Assembly (NCBI GenBank): GCA_028710895.1
Contig: JAQTTH010000008.1
Location: 1-64,000, forward strand
Length of the DNA stretch: 64,000 nucleotides
Source: Paludibacter sp.
GTDB lineage: Bacteria > Bacteroidota > Bacteroidia > Bacteroidales > Paludibacteraceae
Direction of reading: 5' to 3'
The notes under the pieces are model-generated. The model did no database searches. It was not told the DNA's origin and saw only the letters and a list, made by a program, of their open reading frames with translations. A program made the position numbers and the translations under genes. Below, one piece after another: positions 1,208-11,436 of the stretch; position 1 is the stretch's first letter; every line of letters begins with the position of its first letter.

Positions 1208-2521
1208 ATGTCTGATATTATTGATTATATATTACAATTTCTCTTAGGCGAACAAATTAAGCCAGAGATTAGAGGCCAGGTTGGATATACCGACAATCCC
1301 GAAGAGTTTGATAAATATAAACTTATCATTCTTCCATCAGGATTTTTCGATAATGACATGTATGGAACAGAACAAAGTTTACCTCATTTACCACTGCGTA
1401 TATGGGAAGAGACTCCTATCATTTTTGGAGAACCCAGCATCGAACAAATTGGAGACACACGCATAATAAAAGCCGATTTAGTAGCCAGCACCTATTTTCT
1501 TATTTCACGATACGAAGAGATGGTTAGACCTAAAGTACGCGATACACATGGACGTTTTTTAGGAAAAGAATCTTTACCGTATCGGGCAGGTTTTATCGAC
1601 AGACCATTGGTAGAAGAATATGGCAAATTATTGAGAAGTCAGCTTCGGGAAGTATGTTGTGAAGTGCCTGAACCTCCGGCAAAAATTCAAAAAATTTATT
1701 TGACCCACGATGTTGACCAATTAGCGCACTACCGAAATATCAGAGGAATGGTGGGTGGTGTTCTCAGAGGTTTAAAATGGCCAAAAGAGGGGAACAGAGC
1801 GTTGAAAAGCTATTTCATGGGACTTAAATATGACCCCTGGTATACTTTCCCCTGGTTATTTATGCAAGATAATGCATTAAAAAAAGTACTTGGTGAAGAA
1901 CGTAGCGAGACTATCGTTTTTTTTAGAACTGGAGGTGGTCGCAAAAAAGAAGACAAACCAATTTCAAATCTCATTTTACCTGATTTTCAAACCTTATTGA
2001 AGTATTGCCGTAAGAAAAATGTCACGATTGGACTACATACCAGTTATGAAGCTGGTATAAACGTGTCACTCATATCGCGAGAAAAGAAAACACTTGACAG
2101 AATAGGTAAGATTGAAACGATTTATAATCGGCATCATTATCTTTGTTCGCGTGAACCAGATGATATGCAAGCAATTGTAGATGCTGGCTTTACTGATGAT
2201 TTCACATTGGGCTATGCAGATATGGCCGGATTCAGACTTGGAACTTGCCGCCCAGTAAAATGGATCAACCCTAAAACACGTCAGATATCCAATCTCACTT
2301 TGCATCCACTTGCAATTATGGATTGCACACTGAATGATAAGCGATATATGTATATGAATGCACATGATGCTTATCAGTATTGTATGCAACTGATTGACTG
2401 TGTAGAGAGTTATAATGGCGAACTTGTGTTGCTCTGGCACAATACGATGGTAGAAAAAACGCCGCAACTTTACCACCGAAAACTATACAAAGACATTGTA
2501 AAATACCTGAAAACAAAATAA
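1208..2521 (+). CDS. Polysaccharide deacetylase-like protein with DUF7033-type N-terminus
   Basis: 437 aa, no signal peptide seen. The N-terminal part (about residues 60-150, with LVASTYFLISRYEE and a following RDTHGRF) matches what I recall of DUF7033. The C-terminal part resembles a NodB/carbohydrate-esterase-4 fold: THDVD at 166-170 stands in for the usual TFDDG metal motif, and IGLHTSYEAG is a plausible second metal/histidine motif. Such proteins sit in Bacteroidales surface-polysaccharide clusters and are presumed to remove acetyl groups from a glycan. The next gene starts one base after this stop, so the two are transcribed and probably translated together. Substrate unknown. Confidence 0.75.
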   Translation: MSDIIDYILQFLLGEQIKPEIRGQVGYTDNPEEFDKYKLIILPSGFFDNDMYGTEQSLPHLPLRIWEETPIIFGEPSIEQIGDTRIIKADLVASTYFLISRYEEMVRPKVRDTHGRFLGKESLPYRAGFIDRPLVEEYGKLLRSQLREVCCEVPEPPAKIQKIYLTHDVDQLAHYRNIRGMVGGVLRGLKWPKEGNRALKSYFMGLKYDPWYTFPWLFMQDNALKKVLGEERSETIVFFRTGGGRKKEDKPISNLILPDFQTLLKYCRKKNVTIGLHTSYEAGINVSLISREKKTLDRIGKIETIYNRHHYLCSREPDDMQAIVDAGFTDDFTLGYADMAGFRLGTCRPVKWINPKTRQISNLTLHPLAIMDCTLNDKRYMYMNAHDAYQYCMQLIDCVESYNGELVLLWHNTMVEKTPQLYHRKLYKDIVKYLKTK

Positions 2522-6798: not shown

Positions 6799-6837
6799 TT
6801 CAACTGCTGACAAGGTTTTCAACCGTTGTCAGAGTTG
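6799..6837 (+). repeat. REP copy 1, single bulged hairpin
   Basis: A solitary REP unit: flank TTCAACTG, then hairpin 6807-6832 with 5' arm CTGACAAGGTT, loop TTC, and 3' arm AACC, a bulged G, then TTGTCAG; flank AGTTG follows. It has the same structure as the REP units around the RAYT gene at 10526-11158. It lies between the groEL terminator and the 3' end of the lipoprotein gene. Confidence 0.85.
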
Positions 6838-6859
6838 GAACTTATCAATAAATCGAAGG

Positions 6860-7588
6860 TTATTCCCCAAATAAGTCAAATGAAACTAATTCTTTTTGAC
6901 CTTTAGCCTTTTGTTTTACTCCAGAATAGATTGAAGATTTAAAATATCTCCATTGAAGATCAGAAGGAATATTATTTGTCAAACTCCATGTAGTTGTTAC
7001 GCCCATTTTCGTATTTTCTAATTTTTCAATTTTGAAAACCAACTCATTCCAGCCTTTATTCAAAGTCGCATTAAAAACATATTTCAAGGTGTCAACATAA
7101 CCTGACATAACCCATCGTCCTAATAGTGTCTGTACTCCTTTTATTGTTGTCGTCCTATCAACATATAAAAACCTAGAATATGACATTCCTAATGTTTTCA
7201 AACTATCACTAGTAAAATTACATCTGATTAATTCACCAGTAATCTTTCTATTTTTGTACAAATAAATATTAAAAATACTATTTCCTAAAGCATTAGTATC
7301 GCTTACTGTTGTACCTTCTGGACCATTACCAATCGTACTCAATTTTGGTATTGATAAAATCATTGAGAATTTCCCTTCAGTTGTAACACTACTATTACCA
7401 AAAGATGAATTGTCATAATCAAATACTTTTACAGAATCAATCGCCGCAGAAGCATAATTCACTATTGTTCCTTTTAAAACTCCATCGCTGGTAATGGAAG
7501 TATTCGTATCTTGCGATACAGCATTTTTCTCGCAACTATAGAAAATTGCAACTAATACAATTAAAATAACATAGAACTTTGTTTTCAT
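6860..7588 (-). CDS. Putative lipoprotein of unknown function
   Basis: 242 aa. A signal sequence of the form MKTKFYVILIVLVAIFYSC ends at Cys19, giving a clear lipobox, so the protein is probably lipid-anchored in the periplasm or outer membrane. After the Cys come EKNAVSQDTN and a sequence resembling a carboxypeptidase-regulatory-like or immunoglobulin-like beta domain (GVLKGTIVNYASAAIDSV). I do not recognise a family. It lies in the REP-rich island, with REP copies beyond both ends. Confidence 0.7.
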   Translation of the reverse strand: MKTKFYVILIVLVAIFYSCEKNAVSQDTNTSITSDGVLKGTIVNYASAAIDSVKVFDYDNSSFGNSSVTTEGKFSMILSIPKLSTIGNGPEGTTVSDTNALGNSIFNIYLYKNRKITGELIRCNFTSDSLKTLGMSYSRFLYVDRTTTIKGVQTLLGRWVMSGYVDTLKYVFNATLNKGWNELVFKIEKLENTKMGVTTTWSLTNNIPSDLQWRYFKSSIYSGVKQKAKGQKELVSFDLFGE

Positions 7589-7689
7589 AAATATAAAATA
7601 TATTTTTTGCCTACTCTCAAGCTTTTCGGCTACCGCTCCCTACTCTATTACAGGATTTTCGGGCTACTCCTTAATATATTATTTCGTTC

Positions 7690-7772
7690 TTCAACAGCTG
7701 ACAAGGTTTTCAACCGTTGTCAGAGTTGTAAACCTCAACCCTGTCAGTAGTCGAAGACTCTGACAGGGTTGT
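7690..7772. repeat. REP copy 2, inverted pair (BIME)
   Basis: Two bulged hairpins face each other. Hairpin A (7698-7723) is CTGACAAGGTT, loop TTC, AACC + bulged G + TTGTCAG. Hairpin B (7741-7766) has 5' arm CTGTCAG + bulged T + AGTC, loop GAA, 3' arm GACTCTGACAG. Hairpin B read on the other strand is a homologue of A. The pair fills the gap between the lipoprotein start (7588) and the T9SS-protein stop (7790). Confidence 0.9.
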
Positions 7773-7789
7773 GATTTGATTCTGATTAT

Positions 7790-9139
7790 TTATTGTACAA
7801 GTACTTTCCCGACAATAGTTTTCCCGGCGGTAATCAGCCTGTAAACATAAAGTCCGTTCCCCAGTTTTTCTACAGAAACAGATTCCGAAGTACTTATTGG
7901 GCTATTTAGCATTAGTTTTCCTGACAAGCTATACAATTGCAGTTGATTCGAATTACCAAGCTCTGTATTTTGTAACGCAATTGTTTTTGACAGCGCATTA
8001 TATCTTACCACTTCGTTGGTTACTCTTGAAGTATTATTAATGTCGGTTGATTTGTTACTTTCAGAATAATACAATGTATATCCTCCCATTAACAAAGAAT
8101 CAGTTCCATTCGCAATATACAAATCAATATTTTTCAGCTGTGATTTAAACGTATATGGGAAATCAGTAAAAGTATATCCATAATCAATATCACTCATTAA
8201 TATTGATTTATTATAGCTAGTAATATATTTTAATTGCGAAGTACTCATATTATCACCAAACATATCTTCTGTATATGAAATACAATCGTGACTATCGTTA
8301 TAAATGTAATCGTGCTTTTCATCGAAATCCCACAAACTATTTGTAAACTGAAATTTTTCTGAGTGTATCATATCATTATTGGCATCATAATAAAATTTTT
8401 TCTTGATAGACTCTCGCATGATATCCGTACCCCAATCGACATTATACGATACTTCTGCTGTATCACGACTAAGTGAATCGTAAAAATACCGAGTCATTCC
8501 TGATGGTGTTTCGTAGCCGGGATAATACGTATTTATAGTTGAGAGCAAATTACTTTCATAAATATATTCGCTCCTATATGCATCTTCATCTAAATTCACT
8601 GTATCGTTCCACTCTTTTATGGTCTGTGTTCTGTTATTATCATCGAAAATTGTTTTGGTTCGCTGTGTAAATCTTGCAGGGCTAGCATTTCCATATCCAT
8701 CATATCCATTATACTCATCTCTTATTGAATAGTTACTACCATAGCTATATACATATTTATAACTCAGCTCCAACACATCTGTTGAATCAGAAGTTTGTGA
8801 AACATAGAATAATATCATTCTTCCCAAGCTATCGTATTTACATTCAACTTTTCCTTTAGTCATATCAGTCGAGCCGGCAATACCTCCAATAAATACTAAA
8901 CTATCCAATTGATATCTTAGCGATTCACCCTTTTTTACTTTGCAATAAGGCGATGTTGTTCCCAGCCCTTGCAGAGCTAAAGGGTTGTGCTTAGATGTTT
9001 TTGAATTGAAAAACATACCATCCAACATTGAATGGTTGCGAACTTTACTTTTGTTTACAGGATTTTGTGCACTCAAGTTGCTGCAGATAAACACCAGGAG
9101 CATTACACTCCAAAAAGACTTCATTGTAGTTTTATTCAT
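7790..9139 (-). CDS. Secreted protein with T9SS type A sorting domain
   Basis: 449 aa from the ATG at 9139. An upstream in-frame Met at 9175 is less likely, since the signal peptide (MKSFWSVMLLVFICSNLSAQ) starts shortly after the chosen Met. The middle contains several YD-repeat-like stretches such as CKYDSLGR and YIYNDSHD. The last 70 or so residues (LQLYSLSGKLML, then GLYVYRLITAGKTIVGKVLVQ) form a typical type A C-terminal sorting domain, so the protein should be exported by Sec and then moved across or onto the outer membrane by T9SS. Role otherwise unknown. It may be co-transcribed with the DUF6261 gene upstream. Confidence 0.8.
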   Translation of the reverse strand: MNKTTMKSFWSVMLLVFICSNLSAQNPVNKSKVRNHSMLDGMFFNSKTSKHNPLALQGLGTTSPYCKVKKGESLRYQLDSLVFIGGIAGSTDMTKGKVECKYDSLGRMILFYVSQTSDSTDVLELSYKYVYSYGSNYSIRDEYNGYDGYGNASPARFTQRTKTIFDDNNRTQTIKEWNDTVNLDEDAYRSEYIYESNLLSTINTYYPGYETPSGMTRYFYDSLSRDTAEVSYNVDWGTDIMRESIKKKFYYDANNDMIHSEKFQFTNSLWDFDEKHDYIYNDSHDCISYTEDMFGDNMSTSQLKYITSYNKSILMSDIDYGYTFTDFPYTFKSQLKNIDLYIANGTDSLLMGGYTLYYSESNKSTDINNTSRVTNEVVRYNALSKTIALQNTELGNSNQLQLYSLSGKLMLNSPISTSESVSVEKLGNGLYVYRLITAGKTIVGKVLVQ

Positions 9140-9202
9140 TATATATAATTTTATAATGAGAGTGCGAACCAACATCGCACTCCCATTTTGTTTTAAAGAA
9201 AT

Positions 9203-9943
9203 TTATTTCGCAGGTGCATCCGGAGCCGCCGGCGTATCTTTACCACTGCCACCCAGCGCATGATATGTTTTGCGAAGTTCGTCCAATTGGTGGAAAAGAG
9301 AAATTATCTTGTCGCTGGGCGTGAAATTGGCAGCTTGCTCAATGGCTGTACAGAACATATTGTAACTGGCTACGGCTGCTGGTTTGAGCGAAGTGCCCGA
9401 AGCTTCGGCTTTTGCATATTCATCGTTACGACTTTTATAAATTACATTGCTGGCTTTATTTTTAGTTTCGAACGAAGCAAACGAACTATCCAGACCCAAC
9501 ACCTTGGCGGCTGCCTGCACAGCGGCATTGGCATTGTACTTAGTACTGATTTCTGAGAACACACCCGATTTTGAATTCAGTGGTAGCGAGTCGGCATCGA
9601 CATAAGGGGCAATAAACGATTGAATAGTCAATGCTGCCTCCTTTTTTGTTAGATCGGGACTCTTCACATACGAGTTTTCAATGCGTTTAATTTCCTTCCA
9701 AAAGCCAACCCGATCTTTATCCAGGGCATCAAGCTTTTTGGTCAGATCGCTTTTCTGACTCTTGTTTATTTGCTTCCCGAAATTATCATTATCGAGAATA
9801 AACTGAGCTAAAGCTGCACTTTCAATCGGACCAAAATTCGATTTGAATGGAATGGAAACTTCAATACTTGTTTTGAAAAGGGAAAAAGCGTTGTTGATAG
9901 TCAAATTAGCTGCTGTCAACGATGTCAATTCAAATTTACTCAT
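9203..9943 (-). CDS. DUF6261-like protein
   Basis: 246 aa from the ATG at 9943 (MSKFELTSLTAANL); the reading frame is open further upstream but the extension looks non-coding. It appears mostly helical, without signal peptide or membrane segment, and ends in a low-complexity PAAPDAPAK tail. The beginning and the pattern of a conserved NFG followed by paired helices fit what I recall as DUF6261, a Bacteroidales family of unknown function. The 41-bp tandem repeat array lies directly upstream, probably in its 5' region. Confidence 0.65.
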   Translation of the reverse strand: MSKFELTSLTAANLTINNAFSLFKTSIEVSIPFKSNFGPIESAALAQFILDNDNFGKQINKSQKSDLTKKLDALDKDRVGFWKEIKRIENSYVKSPDLTKKEAALTIQSFIAPYVDADSLPLNSKSGVFSEISTKYNANAAVQAAAKVLGLDSSFASFETKNKASNVIYKSRNDEYAKAEASGTSLKPAAVASYNMFCTAIEQAANFTPSDKIISLFHQLDELRKTYHALGGSGKDTPAAPDAPAK

Positions 9944-9999
9944 AAATACAGTTTTTTTAAGTTTATAATAGAAATAAAGTACATCCAAAAAAGTATCAG

Positions 10000-10247
10000 T
10001 ATCCAATCAGCACCAGTACATCCTTCAAAATTCTTTTAAACCTCTATCCAACTCCAAACCAACCTTCAAAAAATATTTTATTGTCCACCCAGCATTAAAC
10101 TAACCCTCATAAAAAGTTTGAAGTCTCATCTGACATCAAAACAACCTTCAAAATTTATTTTATTAACCGTTCAACTCCAAACCATCCTTCAAAAAAATTT
10201 TGAAGCTCCAAATGGCTTCAAATCCTCTTTTAAAATTTATTTTTCCA
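10000..10247 (-). repeat. Degenerate tandem repeat, 41-bp period
   Basis: The anchor CCTTCAAA (once CCCTCATA) recurs at 10022, 10063, 10104, 10145 and 10186, an exact period of 41 bp, with a weaker sixth copy near 10224. The bases before the anchor (for example CAACTCCAAACCA at two positions) and the AT-rich bases after it also align. Because 41 is not a multiple of three, a repeating protein is excluded. A TATATTTG -7-like element on the minus strand at 10308-10301 would place the repeats in the untranslated leader of the DUF6261 gene. Confidence 0.75.
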
Positions 10248-10420
10248 CTAAACCAACTCCTTACTCAGAAACATTTTATATTTTAAGATCATTTCCGCTA
10301 CAAATATAATAAAGTTAATCCAAATGATTAACCTAATTATTCGGATTTTTTTGATTTTTTTTTTGAAAAAACGGGAATCGCTGATTTGGTGGGGGGTCGG
10401 GGATTTTATCTAAATCATTT

Positions 10421-10505
10421 TTCAACTGCTGACATGGTTTTCAACCGATGTCAGAGTTGCAAACAACAACCCTGTCAGTAGTCGAAGACTCTGACAGCGG
10501 TTGAA
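10421..10505. repeat. REP copy 3, inverted pair after the RAYT stop
   Basis: Hairpin A (10428-10453) has arms CTGACATGGTT and AACC + bulged G + ATGTCAG. Relative to the other copies one A-T pair has become T-A, so the pairing is kept by a double change. Hairpin B (10472-10497) is CTGTCAG + bulged T + AGTC, loop GAA, GACTCTGACAG. Outer flanks TTCAACTG and CGGTTGAA are mutually inverted. It lies 20 nt downstream of the transposase stop codon. Confidence 0.92.
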
Positions 10506-10525
10506 AAGAAACTGAAGTTGATTAT

Positions 10526-11158
10526 TTAATCCAGATTTACCAACTCAACATGAGCCAATTGAAAATCGGTAAGACCATCGAACATGGAGAGTACTTTTTC
10601 TTTTTTCAAAAGTGTAACTTTTGAGGAGAGTATTGTATTAAATGAGGTGTATCTGTAATCGGTCAAGCGTTCGACAAAACCATGCTTTATAGGATTTTGA
10701 TGTACATAAATTAAACAGCGTTTGAAATACGGTCGGTTATCAATCAATTTCCGCTTAAAAGAACGTTCGAATAAAGCTCCATGTCGTTTGTATTTATAAT
10801 TAAAATACTGGGCATACGAATTGAATAGATGCGAAAATTGTTTAGTTGGGTCAGGTTTCTTATCGGGAGACTGTTCCTTAGTTTTATCTTCAAACAAACC
10901 AAGTTCAACAAGTGTCTTAATCTCCGTCTCATTTTTAATCCTGACGACAACATGAAAATGATTTCCCAACAAACTCCAGGCATAAGTATCGGCAATTGGC
11001 TCAATGTACTTTGCATACTTCGACAAAAAACGATTATAATCATCGTCATCTACAAAAATATCACATCCATCAATACCACAATTGTAAATGTGATAAACTG
11101 AATTGTATTCGAGATTTGGTTCGGAGAATTGATTCATATATTTATGATTTAAATTCAT
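10526..11158 (-). CDS. REP-associated tyrosine transposase (RAYT), Y1/HUH family
   Basis: 210 aa from the ATG at 11158. The frame stays open to 11236, but that extension is simply REP copy 4 translated, so the later start (preceded by GGTTGAAG) is chosen; a further Met lies at 11137. The sequence has the HUH motif (GNHFHVVV, His67 and His69), a candidate nucleophile Tyr115 in FNSYAQYFNYKYKRHG, and the LFERSFKRKLID, IYVHQNPIKHG and YRYTS blocks typical of single-strand-specific Y1 transposases. RAYTs cleave and join REP hairpins. This one is bracketed by REP pairs on both sides. It appears intact. Confidence 0.92.
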   Translation of the reverse strand: MNLNHKYMNQFSEPNLEYNSVYHIYNCGIDGCDIFVDDDDYNRFLSKYAKYIEPIADTYAWSLLGNHFHVVVRIKNETEIKTLVELGLFEDKTKEQSPDKKPDPTKQFSHLFNSYAQYFNYKYKRHGALFERSFKRKLIDNRPYFKRCLIYVHQNPIKHGFVERLTDYRYTSFNTILSSKVTLLKKEKVLSMFDGLTDFQLAHVELVNLD

Positions 11159-11171
11159 ATCTTCAACCACA

Positions 11172-11215
11172 ACTATCAACCCTGTCAGCAGTTCGAAGGA
11201 CTCTGATAGCGGTTG
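11172..11215. repeat. REP copy 4, single hairpin just upstream of the RAYT start
   Basis: Hairpin of B type at 11182-11209: CTGTCAG + bulged C + AGTTC, loop GAA, GGACTCTGATAG. It pairs with two G-U wobbles, so it is slightly decayed. It begins only about 25 nt from the transposase start codon and would be in its mRNA leader. Flank CGGTTGAA follows. Confidence 0.85.
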
Positions 11216-11245
11216 AAAAAAAAGCTCAAAGTCCATTTATCTTCA

Positions 11246-11330
11246 TCAACTGCTGACAAGGTTTGTCAACCGTTGTCAGAGTTGCAAACATCAACCCTGT
11301 AAGCAGTCGAAGACTCTGACAGCAGTTGAA
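11246..11330. repeat. REP copy 5, inverted pair
   Basis: Hairpin A is at 11253-11279, with one extra base in the loop (TGTC). Hairpin B is at 11297-11322, with one stem mismatch (CTGTAAG opposite CTGACAG). Flanks CAACTG and CAGTTGAA are inverted copies of each other. It is 15 nt from copy 6's leader segment and belongs to the same cluster upstream of the RAYT gene. Confidence 0.9.
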
Positions 11331-11355
11331 AAAACAAATCCTATTTTCATCTTCA

Positions 11356-11436
11356 TCAACTCCTGACAAGGTTTTCAACCATTGTCAGAGTTGCAAACAA
11401 CCCTGTCAGCAGTCGAAGACTCTGACAGCGGTTGAA
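11356..11436. repeat. REP copy 6, inverted pair
   Basis: Hairpin A is at 11363-11388 (bulged base is A instead of G). Hairpin B is at 11403-11428, with perfect stem halves and a bulged C. The pair ends 17 nt before the stop of the hexosaminidase gene, so it also lies in that gene's 3' flank. Confidence 0.9.

Follow-up and report, generated by a model that had tools for sequence, protein, structure and literature searches.

The stretch analysed here, 64,000 nucleotides of Paludibacter sp. contig JAQTTH010000008.1 (assembly GCA_028710895.1; hereafter the window), harbours a single gene for a REP-associated tyrosine transposase (RAYT, or TnpA-REP; REP, repetitive extragenic palindrome) among six sites that, between positions 6801 and 11434, hold ten hairpins: four inverted pairs and the lone copies A1 and B4 (Table 1). 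A-type hairpins lie on the plus strand and B-type hairpins on the minus strand, so that paired copies face each other. An earlier note, made from the sequence of the window, had the position of the locus, the RAYT gene, the six REP sites and the facing pairs right; its count of eleven hairpins becomes ten under our covariance model R1, which was trained on the hairpins of the window and of an orthologous locus, L052. We interpret the locus as a REPtron, that is, one RAYT gene flanked by pairs of the REP hairpins that belong to it (bacterial interspersed mosaic elements, BIMEs, or REP doublets forming hairpins, REPINs), and estimate the probability of this reading at roughly 0.8. Gene names such as hexosaminidase-like or ABC-transporter represent our own reading of the sequences; assignment to Bacteroidetes rests on a type IX secretion tail encoded by a neighbouring gene.

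Read in a common orientation, each hairpin comprises a stem of 36-39 nt in which 5 bp of CAACY/RGTTG, 7 bp and about 4 bp lead up to a short loop, in the order CAACY, purine bulge, 7 bp, about 4 bp, loop, 4 bp, purine bulge, 7 bp and RGTTG. The 26-28-nt hairpin described previously is therefore retained as the inner part and not as the whole, since CAACY/RGTTG pairing extends outside it to 36-39 nt. Where one bulge per hairpin had been claimed, we found up to two single-base bulges, on opposite arms, the second bulge and the outer 5 bp being equally regular. Nor is the bulge base G, A, C or T indifferently: in one orientation the ten window copies carry a purine at 18 of 19 bulge bases, one bulge being absent (bulge 1 is G in eight copies, C in one and absent in one; bulge 2 is G in seven and A in three), and the apparent variety arose because strands had been mixed. 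The loop has three bases in most window copies, as the earlier note had it, with four bases once among the A copies and a longer loop in B4. TTCAAC had been proposed as a constant flank and candidate recognition tetranucleotide region; a free recognition tetranucleotide finds no support in this form, because CAAC is base-paired with GTTG and belongs to the stem. The preceding TT is kept at seven of the ten window copies.

Table 1. Features of the RAYT locus in the window, followed by the Cas6-RAYT fusions found in other genomes.
Feature	Position	Strand	Remarks
RAYT (TnpA-REP) gene	10526-11158	-	210 aa; HUH motif NHFH, catalytic-tyrosine motif YVHQNP; second possible ATG at 11137
In-frame open extension 5' of RAYT start	11159..11236	-	reads through B4 to an ATG at 11236
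REP hairpin A1, lone	6801..6837	+	between groEL and gene 6860-7588(-); model R1; pairs outer 5/5, mid 7/7, top 4; bulges G/G
REP hairpin A2, pair 2	7692..7728	+	model R1 and DNA folding
REP hairpin B2, pair 2	7736..7771	-	36 nt, without first bulge; model R1 and folding
REP hairpin A3, pair 3	10423..10459	+	mid-stem CTGACAT/ATGTCAG, a paired change relative to A1
REP hairpin B3, pair 3	10467..10503	-	beyond the RAYT stop, which is 22 nt away
REP hairpin B4, lone	11177..11215	-	weakest copy (37.7 bits); 18 nt 5' of RAYT ATG 11158
REP hairpin A5, pair 5	11247..11284	+	loop of four bases; model R1 and folding
REP hairpin B5, pair 5	11292..11328	-	model R1 and folding
REP hairpin A6, pair 6	11357..11393	+	model R1 and folding
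REP hairpin B6, pair 6	11398..11434	-	begins 18 nt beyond the stop of the hexosaminidase-like gene
Cas6-RAYT fusion, genome G160	L241:22-1467	-	in frame, Cas6 N-terminal, RAYT C-terminal; the three fusions 481-519 aa
Cas6-RAYT fusion, genome G150	L239:9269-10747		as above
Cas6-RAYT fusion, genome G174	L240:306-1865		as above

Folded singly as DNA and without the model, A3 and B3 adopt the structure described (z -5.9 each, none of 200 shuffles as good), and the lowest-energy DNA fold of all four pairs consists of two separate hairpins. Genome-wide E-values of the ten hairpins under R1 range from 7.5e-12 to 7.9e-6 and are partly circular, because nine of the ten are in its training set. The conservation of shape with compensated sequence was evaluated in a MAFFT alignment of 13 hairpins, comprising the nine window copies other than B4 and the four hairpins of L052. 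In this alignment 96.2% of 208 cells are paired. Both sides have changed in 9 of 16 pairs, a number that 10 of 500 shuffles equal or exceed. Covariation scores 0.49, whereas shuffles give 0.19 and none of the 500 comes up to the observed value; displacing the partners by one to three columns lowers the score to at most 0.15. The paired substitutions between hairpin types noticed earlier are borne out. An alignment of 33 model-fitted matches (31 distinct) is 94.7% paired, with both-side changes in 11 of 16 pairs and a score of 0.41, values that lean towards the structure because the rows were fitted to it. The strongest single fact is offered by L052, whose RAYT is 57% identical to that of the window and whose hairpins retain the arrangement of 5 bp, bulge, 7 bp, 4 bp, loop and bulge with different 7-bp mid-stems (CAACGAA and CTTTTGG versus CTGACAA and CTGTCAG); in one of the four L052 copies 5 of the 7 mid-stem pairs form, and in two the top is weakened.

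The RAYT protein has no Pfam match at 1e-3. Searched against the PDB at E<=0.01, the 21-row profile A2 has TnpA-REP (4er8_A, E 2.3e-6) as its sole match, and a Foldseek comparison of the predicted structure (pLDDT 84, pTM 0.80) with a copy of the PDB likewise places 4er8_A best (E 8e-8, TM 0.51/0.63), followed by IS200-type transposases, with ISDra2 and IS608 among the matches. The second H, the Y, the N and the P are invariant in the 21 rows and the first H is conserved in all but one, so that the protein has the HUH and single-tyrosine core with Y---NP that defines RAYTs (class 2 TnpA-Y1). An insert of variable length follows the HUH motif, and in the structure model the helix that ends at residue 122 is separated by 12 residues from the strand that begins at 135. 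According to parts of Quentin et al. 2018 (PMC6006769), the GTAG-reading residues in E. coli are W94, Q95, E100, H101 and R104. Their alignment counterparts in the window RAYT are F, E, R, K and D, in a register that is likely yet uncertain because identity is 13%, and these replacements are in suggestive agreement with CAAC/GTTG feet. The open extension ahead of the gene is probably leader rather than coding sequence, and the orthologues start near the second ATG; hairpin B4 accordingly lies in a leader or in an N-terminal extension of the RAYT, a position to be compared with the Cas6-REP-RAYT fusions described below. The window genome also codes for a second, distant RAYT (L064:5475-6119(-), G000:C31; 36-37% identity over parts), which has a hairpin family of its own, including an in-gene copy encoding TDSLSQREAIC.

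Comparative material was drawn from 48 genomes of the same genus, including that of the window (G000), and from a sample of 150 genomes of the wider family. Window-type RAYTs (67-100% identity) occur in 4 of the 48 (G000, G156, G174 and G161), and a fifth (57%) was found in G024, from another genus. The four closest orthologues found are 57-71% identical, lie at two other genomic sites and are all open frames, and the five RAYTs form one clade (support 99/100). All five have R1 hairpins on both sides (L215, L216, L217, L052 and the window), the nearest 5' hairpin standing 18-64 nt ahead of the start; the number of dispersed hairpins expected in a 600-nt flank is at most 0.001 in G156, G174 and G161. 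The flanked orthologues, the strong covariation and the 4er8 fold match together support the proposal, already made in the earlier note, that the RAYT lies within a bulged REP family of its own.

The model search of the genome that the earlier note had advised returned 20 matches at E<=1 in 4.9 Mb, ten at the locus and ten outside it, so that the family is dispersed but few in number. An exact-pattern search had suggested near confinement to the locus; it proved too strict, and the covariance model, preferred over a regular expression for the bulged hairpin that failed to recover known copies, refuted this suggestion. Within the genus, hairpins at E<=0.001 are present in 4 of 4 genomes with the RAYT (17, 11, 10 and 2 copies) and in 7 of 44 without it (Fisher p 0.0017; 3 of 3 versus 7 of 44 and p 0.0074 without G000), in tests that ignore kinship and include several incomplete genomes. 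To the question raised previously, whether these REPs are equally common in genomes without such a RAYT, the answer is thus divided: equally common they are not, and present without it they are. Copies in genus genomes without the RAYT are fewer than in three of the four that have it.

The five RAYTs occupy three kinds of neighbourhood, namely between groEL and the hexosaminidase-like gene (window), beside a gene of about 790 codons (G156, G174) and beside an ABC-transporter pair (G161, G024). Six relatives carry a hexosaminidase-like gene and groEL in one stretch (G001, G034, G144, G152, G154 and G156; groEL was not found in eight other stretches), and a RAYT match is absent from that site in all six. 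Family hairpins are nonetheless present there in two of them (G001 and G156) and in none of the other four: a hairpin lies 18, 11 and 17 nt 3' of the hexosaminidase stop in G000, G156 and G001, respectively, in reversed orientation in G001, and G156 carries its RAYT elsewhere. The site of the RAYT in G156 and G174 holds the gene and hairpins in both, and no hairpin within the flanks examined in G000, G001, G034, G144 and G161. Because some relatives have hairpins without a RAYT at such a site, these comparisons of sequence indicate that the RAYT was gained or lost at REP-bearing sites.

Several observations weigh against the REPtron interpretation. The family has a low copy number, with half of its 20 matches at the locus, and REPs usually exceed 100 copies according to the abstract of Nunvar 2010; G161 carries the RAYT and only 2 hairpins; and hairpins occur in seven same-genus genomes without the gene (6, 5, 4, 4, 1, 1 and 1 copies). 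Beyond the genus, bulged hairpins were detected in G119 (25) and G023 (10), where profile A2 finds no window-type RAYT; two weak A2 matches in G119 are other Y1 proteins. The two-sided flanking is independently tested by L215-L217 only, because R1 was trained on the hairpins of the window and L052. The 17 further pair types of the 13-row alignment are unexceptional, being matched by 139 of 500 shuffles, and the centroid fold of A5-B5 differs from two separate hairpins, its lowest-energy fold having a frequency of 0.11. On the side of the protein, the window RAYT scores 49 bits on NCBIfam NF047646 (REP_Tyr_transpos), below the curated cut-off of 80 (seven further members of its tree score 45-56 bits), and it is without the W-Q motif of GTAG-reading RAYTs.

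Some of these observations would fit a relic, in which RAYT and REPs are decaying and inactive and the hairpins survive as 3' ends of transcripts or as terminators, an alternative compatible with a REPtron origin. The dispersed copies are few and often imperfect, hairpins are found without the RAYT in 7 of 44 genus genomes, and in G001 and G156 they stand beside a stop codon without the gene. Against decay, the reading frame of the gene is complete and its HUH, Tyr and N-P motifs are intact, the frames of all four orthologues found are likewise open, and the ten copies of the locus have nearly perfect stems with paired changes; we regard a relic as possible and rather doubtful. That the hairpins are instead an independent intergenic repeat family, with the RAYT beside it either by coincidence or through homologous recombination of repeats, seems improbable. 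It would account for hairpins without the RAYT in G119 (25), G023 (10), G169 (6) and G144 (5), and for near-identical inverted pairs that in G023 flank a HEPN/MNT pair and not a RAYT, yet it sits poorly with flanking on both sides in five of five cases, where about 0.001 dispersed hairpins or fewer are expected per 600-nt flank, and with the genus association (p 0.0017, or 0.0074 without G000).

Least probable of all, in our view, is an autonomous insertion sequence of IS200/IS605 type with the hairpins as its ends. The enzyme belongs to the same superfamily (ISDra2 and IS608 in Foldseek), hairpins flank the gene, and five genomes have the gene at sites of three kinds. The gene is single-copy in its genome, however, the sole other match being 36-37% identical (two pieces of one gene); near-identical multiple copies of gene and ends were seen neither in the window genome nor in the same-genus genomes searched; the hairpins occur in pairs and are dispersed apart from the gene; and YVHQNP is of the Y---NP and not the Y---Q class, following the classes given in parts of PMC6006769. 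An IS200-type element was rejected on the single copy and the Y---NP motif.

In the wider family sample, R1 matches at E<=0.01 occur in 9 of 150 genomes. Those in G010 and G100 were discarded as a different type, being perfect palindromes without bulges (two of 30 inspected in G010, one of 3 in G100), as was the single match in G105, which by its coordinates lies on a perfect palindrome behind the RAYT of L047. Hairpins in genomes without the RAYT, both in the genus and in G119 and G023, suggest that the repeats outlive or outrun the gene. At L128:4476-5452 (G023:C5:70475-71451), two near-identical inverted REP pairs flank an MNT nucleotidyltransferase/HepT-like pair (HEPN/MNT, toxin-antitoxin type); the A core is identical to that of window A1 and the B core is that of B6 with one inserted base, the bulge letters of both B hairpins and of one A being left unused because the model matches were truncated or extended. 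At L130 (G119:C157:220, 1294, 2894), three identical bulged hairpins surround two adjacent genes whose lipoprotein-like starts are near-identical, as if gene and repeat had been duplicated together.

The REPtron reading extrapolates binding, cleavage, mobility and the bases read from E. coli TnpA-REP and its wider family. On this analogy, the RAYT probably recognises the hairpins: it would bind the hairpin in single-stranded DNA, for instance on the lagging strand, and would read the foot region (CAAC/GTTG in place of GTAG) together with the stem, with the purine bulges acting as shape cues. Its tyrosine would then cut at the foot, leading to small inverted pairs being copied or moved within the genome. 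We further propose, tentatively and with well under even confidence, that the window and its four orthologues represent a separate REP class, marked by a double foot of CAAC/GTTG, by one purine bulge on each arm and by a 7-bp mid-stem that remains paired as it varies between lineages, and that this class may be read by a RAYT with all GTAG-reading residues replaced. As part of this proposal, the RAYT gene and its flanking pairs would relocate onto or out of REP-bearing sites, so that the REPtron would move as a whole; according to PMC6006769, the REPtron does not seem to transpose as a single unit. The site that has hairpins only in two relatives and hairpins plus RAYT in the window constitutes a natural comparison for REPtron spread. 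To our knowledge, RAYT-REP recognition and the joint change of protein and hairpin have been little tested outside proteobacteria. The five orthologous RAYT-hairpin pairs share a constant outline, have a foot unlike the GTAG type and, in one case, an entirely different mid-stem, and they therefore make protein/hairpin swap experiments direct.

Hairpins within RAYT genes were surveyed in 57 frames from 79 loci, all distinct, of at least 170 aa, with the HUH motif and at least 75 bits. The 22 loci without a retained frame comprise 12 with Cas6 only, 4 with duplicate proteins and 6 below 75 bits or 170 aa (L067, L228, L229, L230, L232, L237); among the dropped loci, the in-gene hairpin score reaches at least 12 in L067 and L228, and 10 in L230. 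An in-frame hairpin of score >=12 is present in 34 of the 57 frames; each of the 34 has one in the loop that directly follows the HUH motif, at an offset of +9 to +40 aa. Among 478 other frames of the loci, 5 carry such a hairpin, and one of these is the RAYT frame L067. Stem sequences of the in-gene copies vary widely between lineages yet match the flanking hairpins of their own locus in most loci: of the 30 loci with both, 25 have the in-gene copy among the top 10% for similarity. REP insertions inside subclass 2.4 genes have already been reported (PMC6006769, in part). None of the five members of the window clade has an in-gene hairpin of score >=12, and the best internal score of the window gene, 8, is reached by 15 of 100 synonymous shuffles, giving no in-gene REP.

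Three RAYTs of this survey are fused to Cas6 (Table 1). Their HUH and Tyr motifs are intact, and each fusion has an extra in-frame REP hairpin at the junction in addition to a related copy in the loop after the HUH motif. The Cas6 part scores 88-93 bits on Pfam Cas_Cas6_C and, in the two tested, 126 and 120.8 bits on NCBIfam cas_cas6, against a cut-off of 58.65. In G174 (L240) the fusion is the first gene of a type I-B CRISPR-Cas operon (Cas7, Cas3, Cas4 and Cas1 assigned by Pfam, Cas5b by NCBIfam, Cas8 and Cas2 by position alone), and an array of 17 repeats follows at the end of the contig; a CRISPR repeat as the source of the REP was dismissed, the L240 array repeat being unrelated to the hairpin by eye. 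Separate RAYT genes also stand beside cas6 in CRISPR-Cas operons, 3' of it in L281:5789-7297 (G511) and L282:8601-10066 (G443) and 5' of it in L283:2854-4879 (G234), where cas6 was identified by similarity and the other cas genes were named by reading. Between cas3- and cas4-like genes L282 carries a further RAYT-like gene (1581-2192(-)), which has one hairpin inside it and another behind. No Cas6-RAYT link was found in the titles or abstracts of the literature searched; six papers contain both words somewhere in their text.

Compared with known systems, the window locus resembles E. coli TnpA-REP (TnpA-Y1 subclass 2.2, 4er8) in its HUH/Y1 fold, flanking inverted REP pairs, bulged hairpins and one gene per REP family, and differs from it in having CAAC/GTTG and not GTAG feet, apparently replaced GTAG-reading residues and few dispersed copies. 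The 5' GT[AG]G guide tetranucleotide of canonical REPs is thus lacking; since subclasses 2.6 and 3 are also without GTRG, according to parts of PMC6006769, this excludes the canonical type and not the class. With subclass 2.4 (RAYT group 4), as far as it is characterised in those parts, the window system shares the variable insert after the HUH motif and 'double foot' REPs (CAAC..GTTG versus GTRG..CYAC), and relatives in the tree of the window RAYT share in-gene REPs (34 of 57 frames). It departs from that subclass in having F-E and not W-Q, YVHQNP and not YIxNNP, no GTRG foot, and no in-gene REP of score >=12 in the window gene or its four orthologues. Subclass 2.6 (RAYT group 5), mostly from Bacteroidetes in the same source, is similar in its host phylum, its atypical non-GTAG structures and its Y-I/V-H-[QN]-N-P motif, whereas its NH[LIV]H, W-Q and 21-aa insert between alphaC and beta4 contrast with NHFH, F-E and 12 residues in the window protein; the five L070-type proteins used, which we take as subclass 2.6, form a separate tree group (100/100). 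The locus is a real REP-RAYT system, of a variant that fits neither of the published subclasses tested, 2.4 and 2.6.

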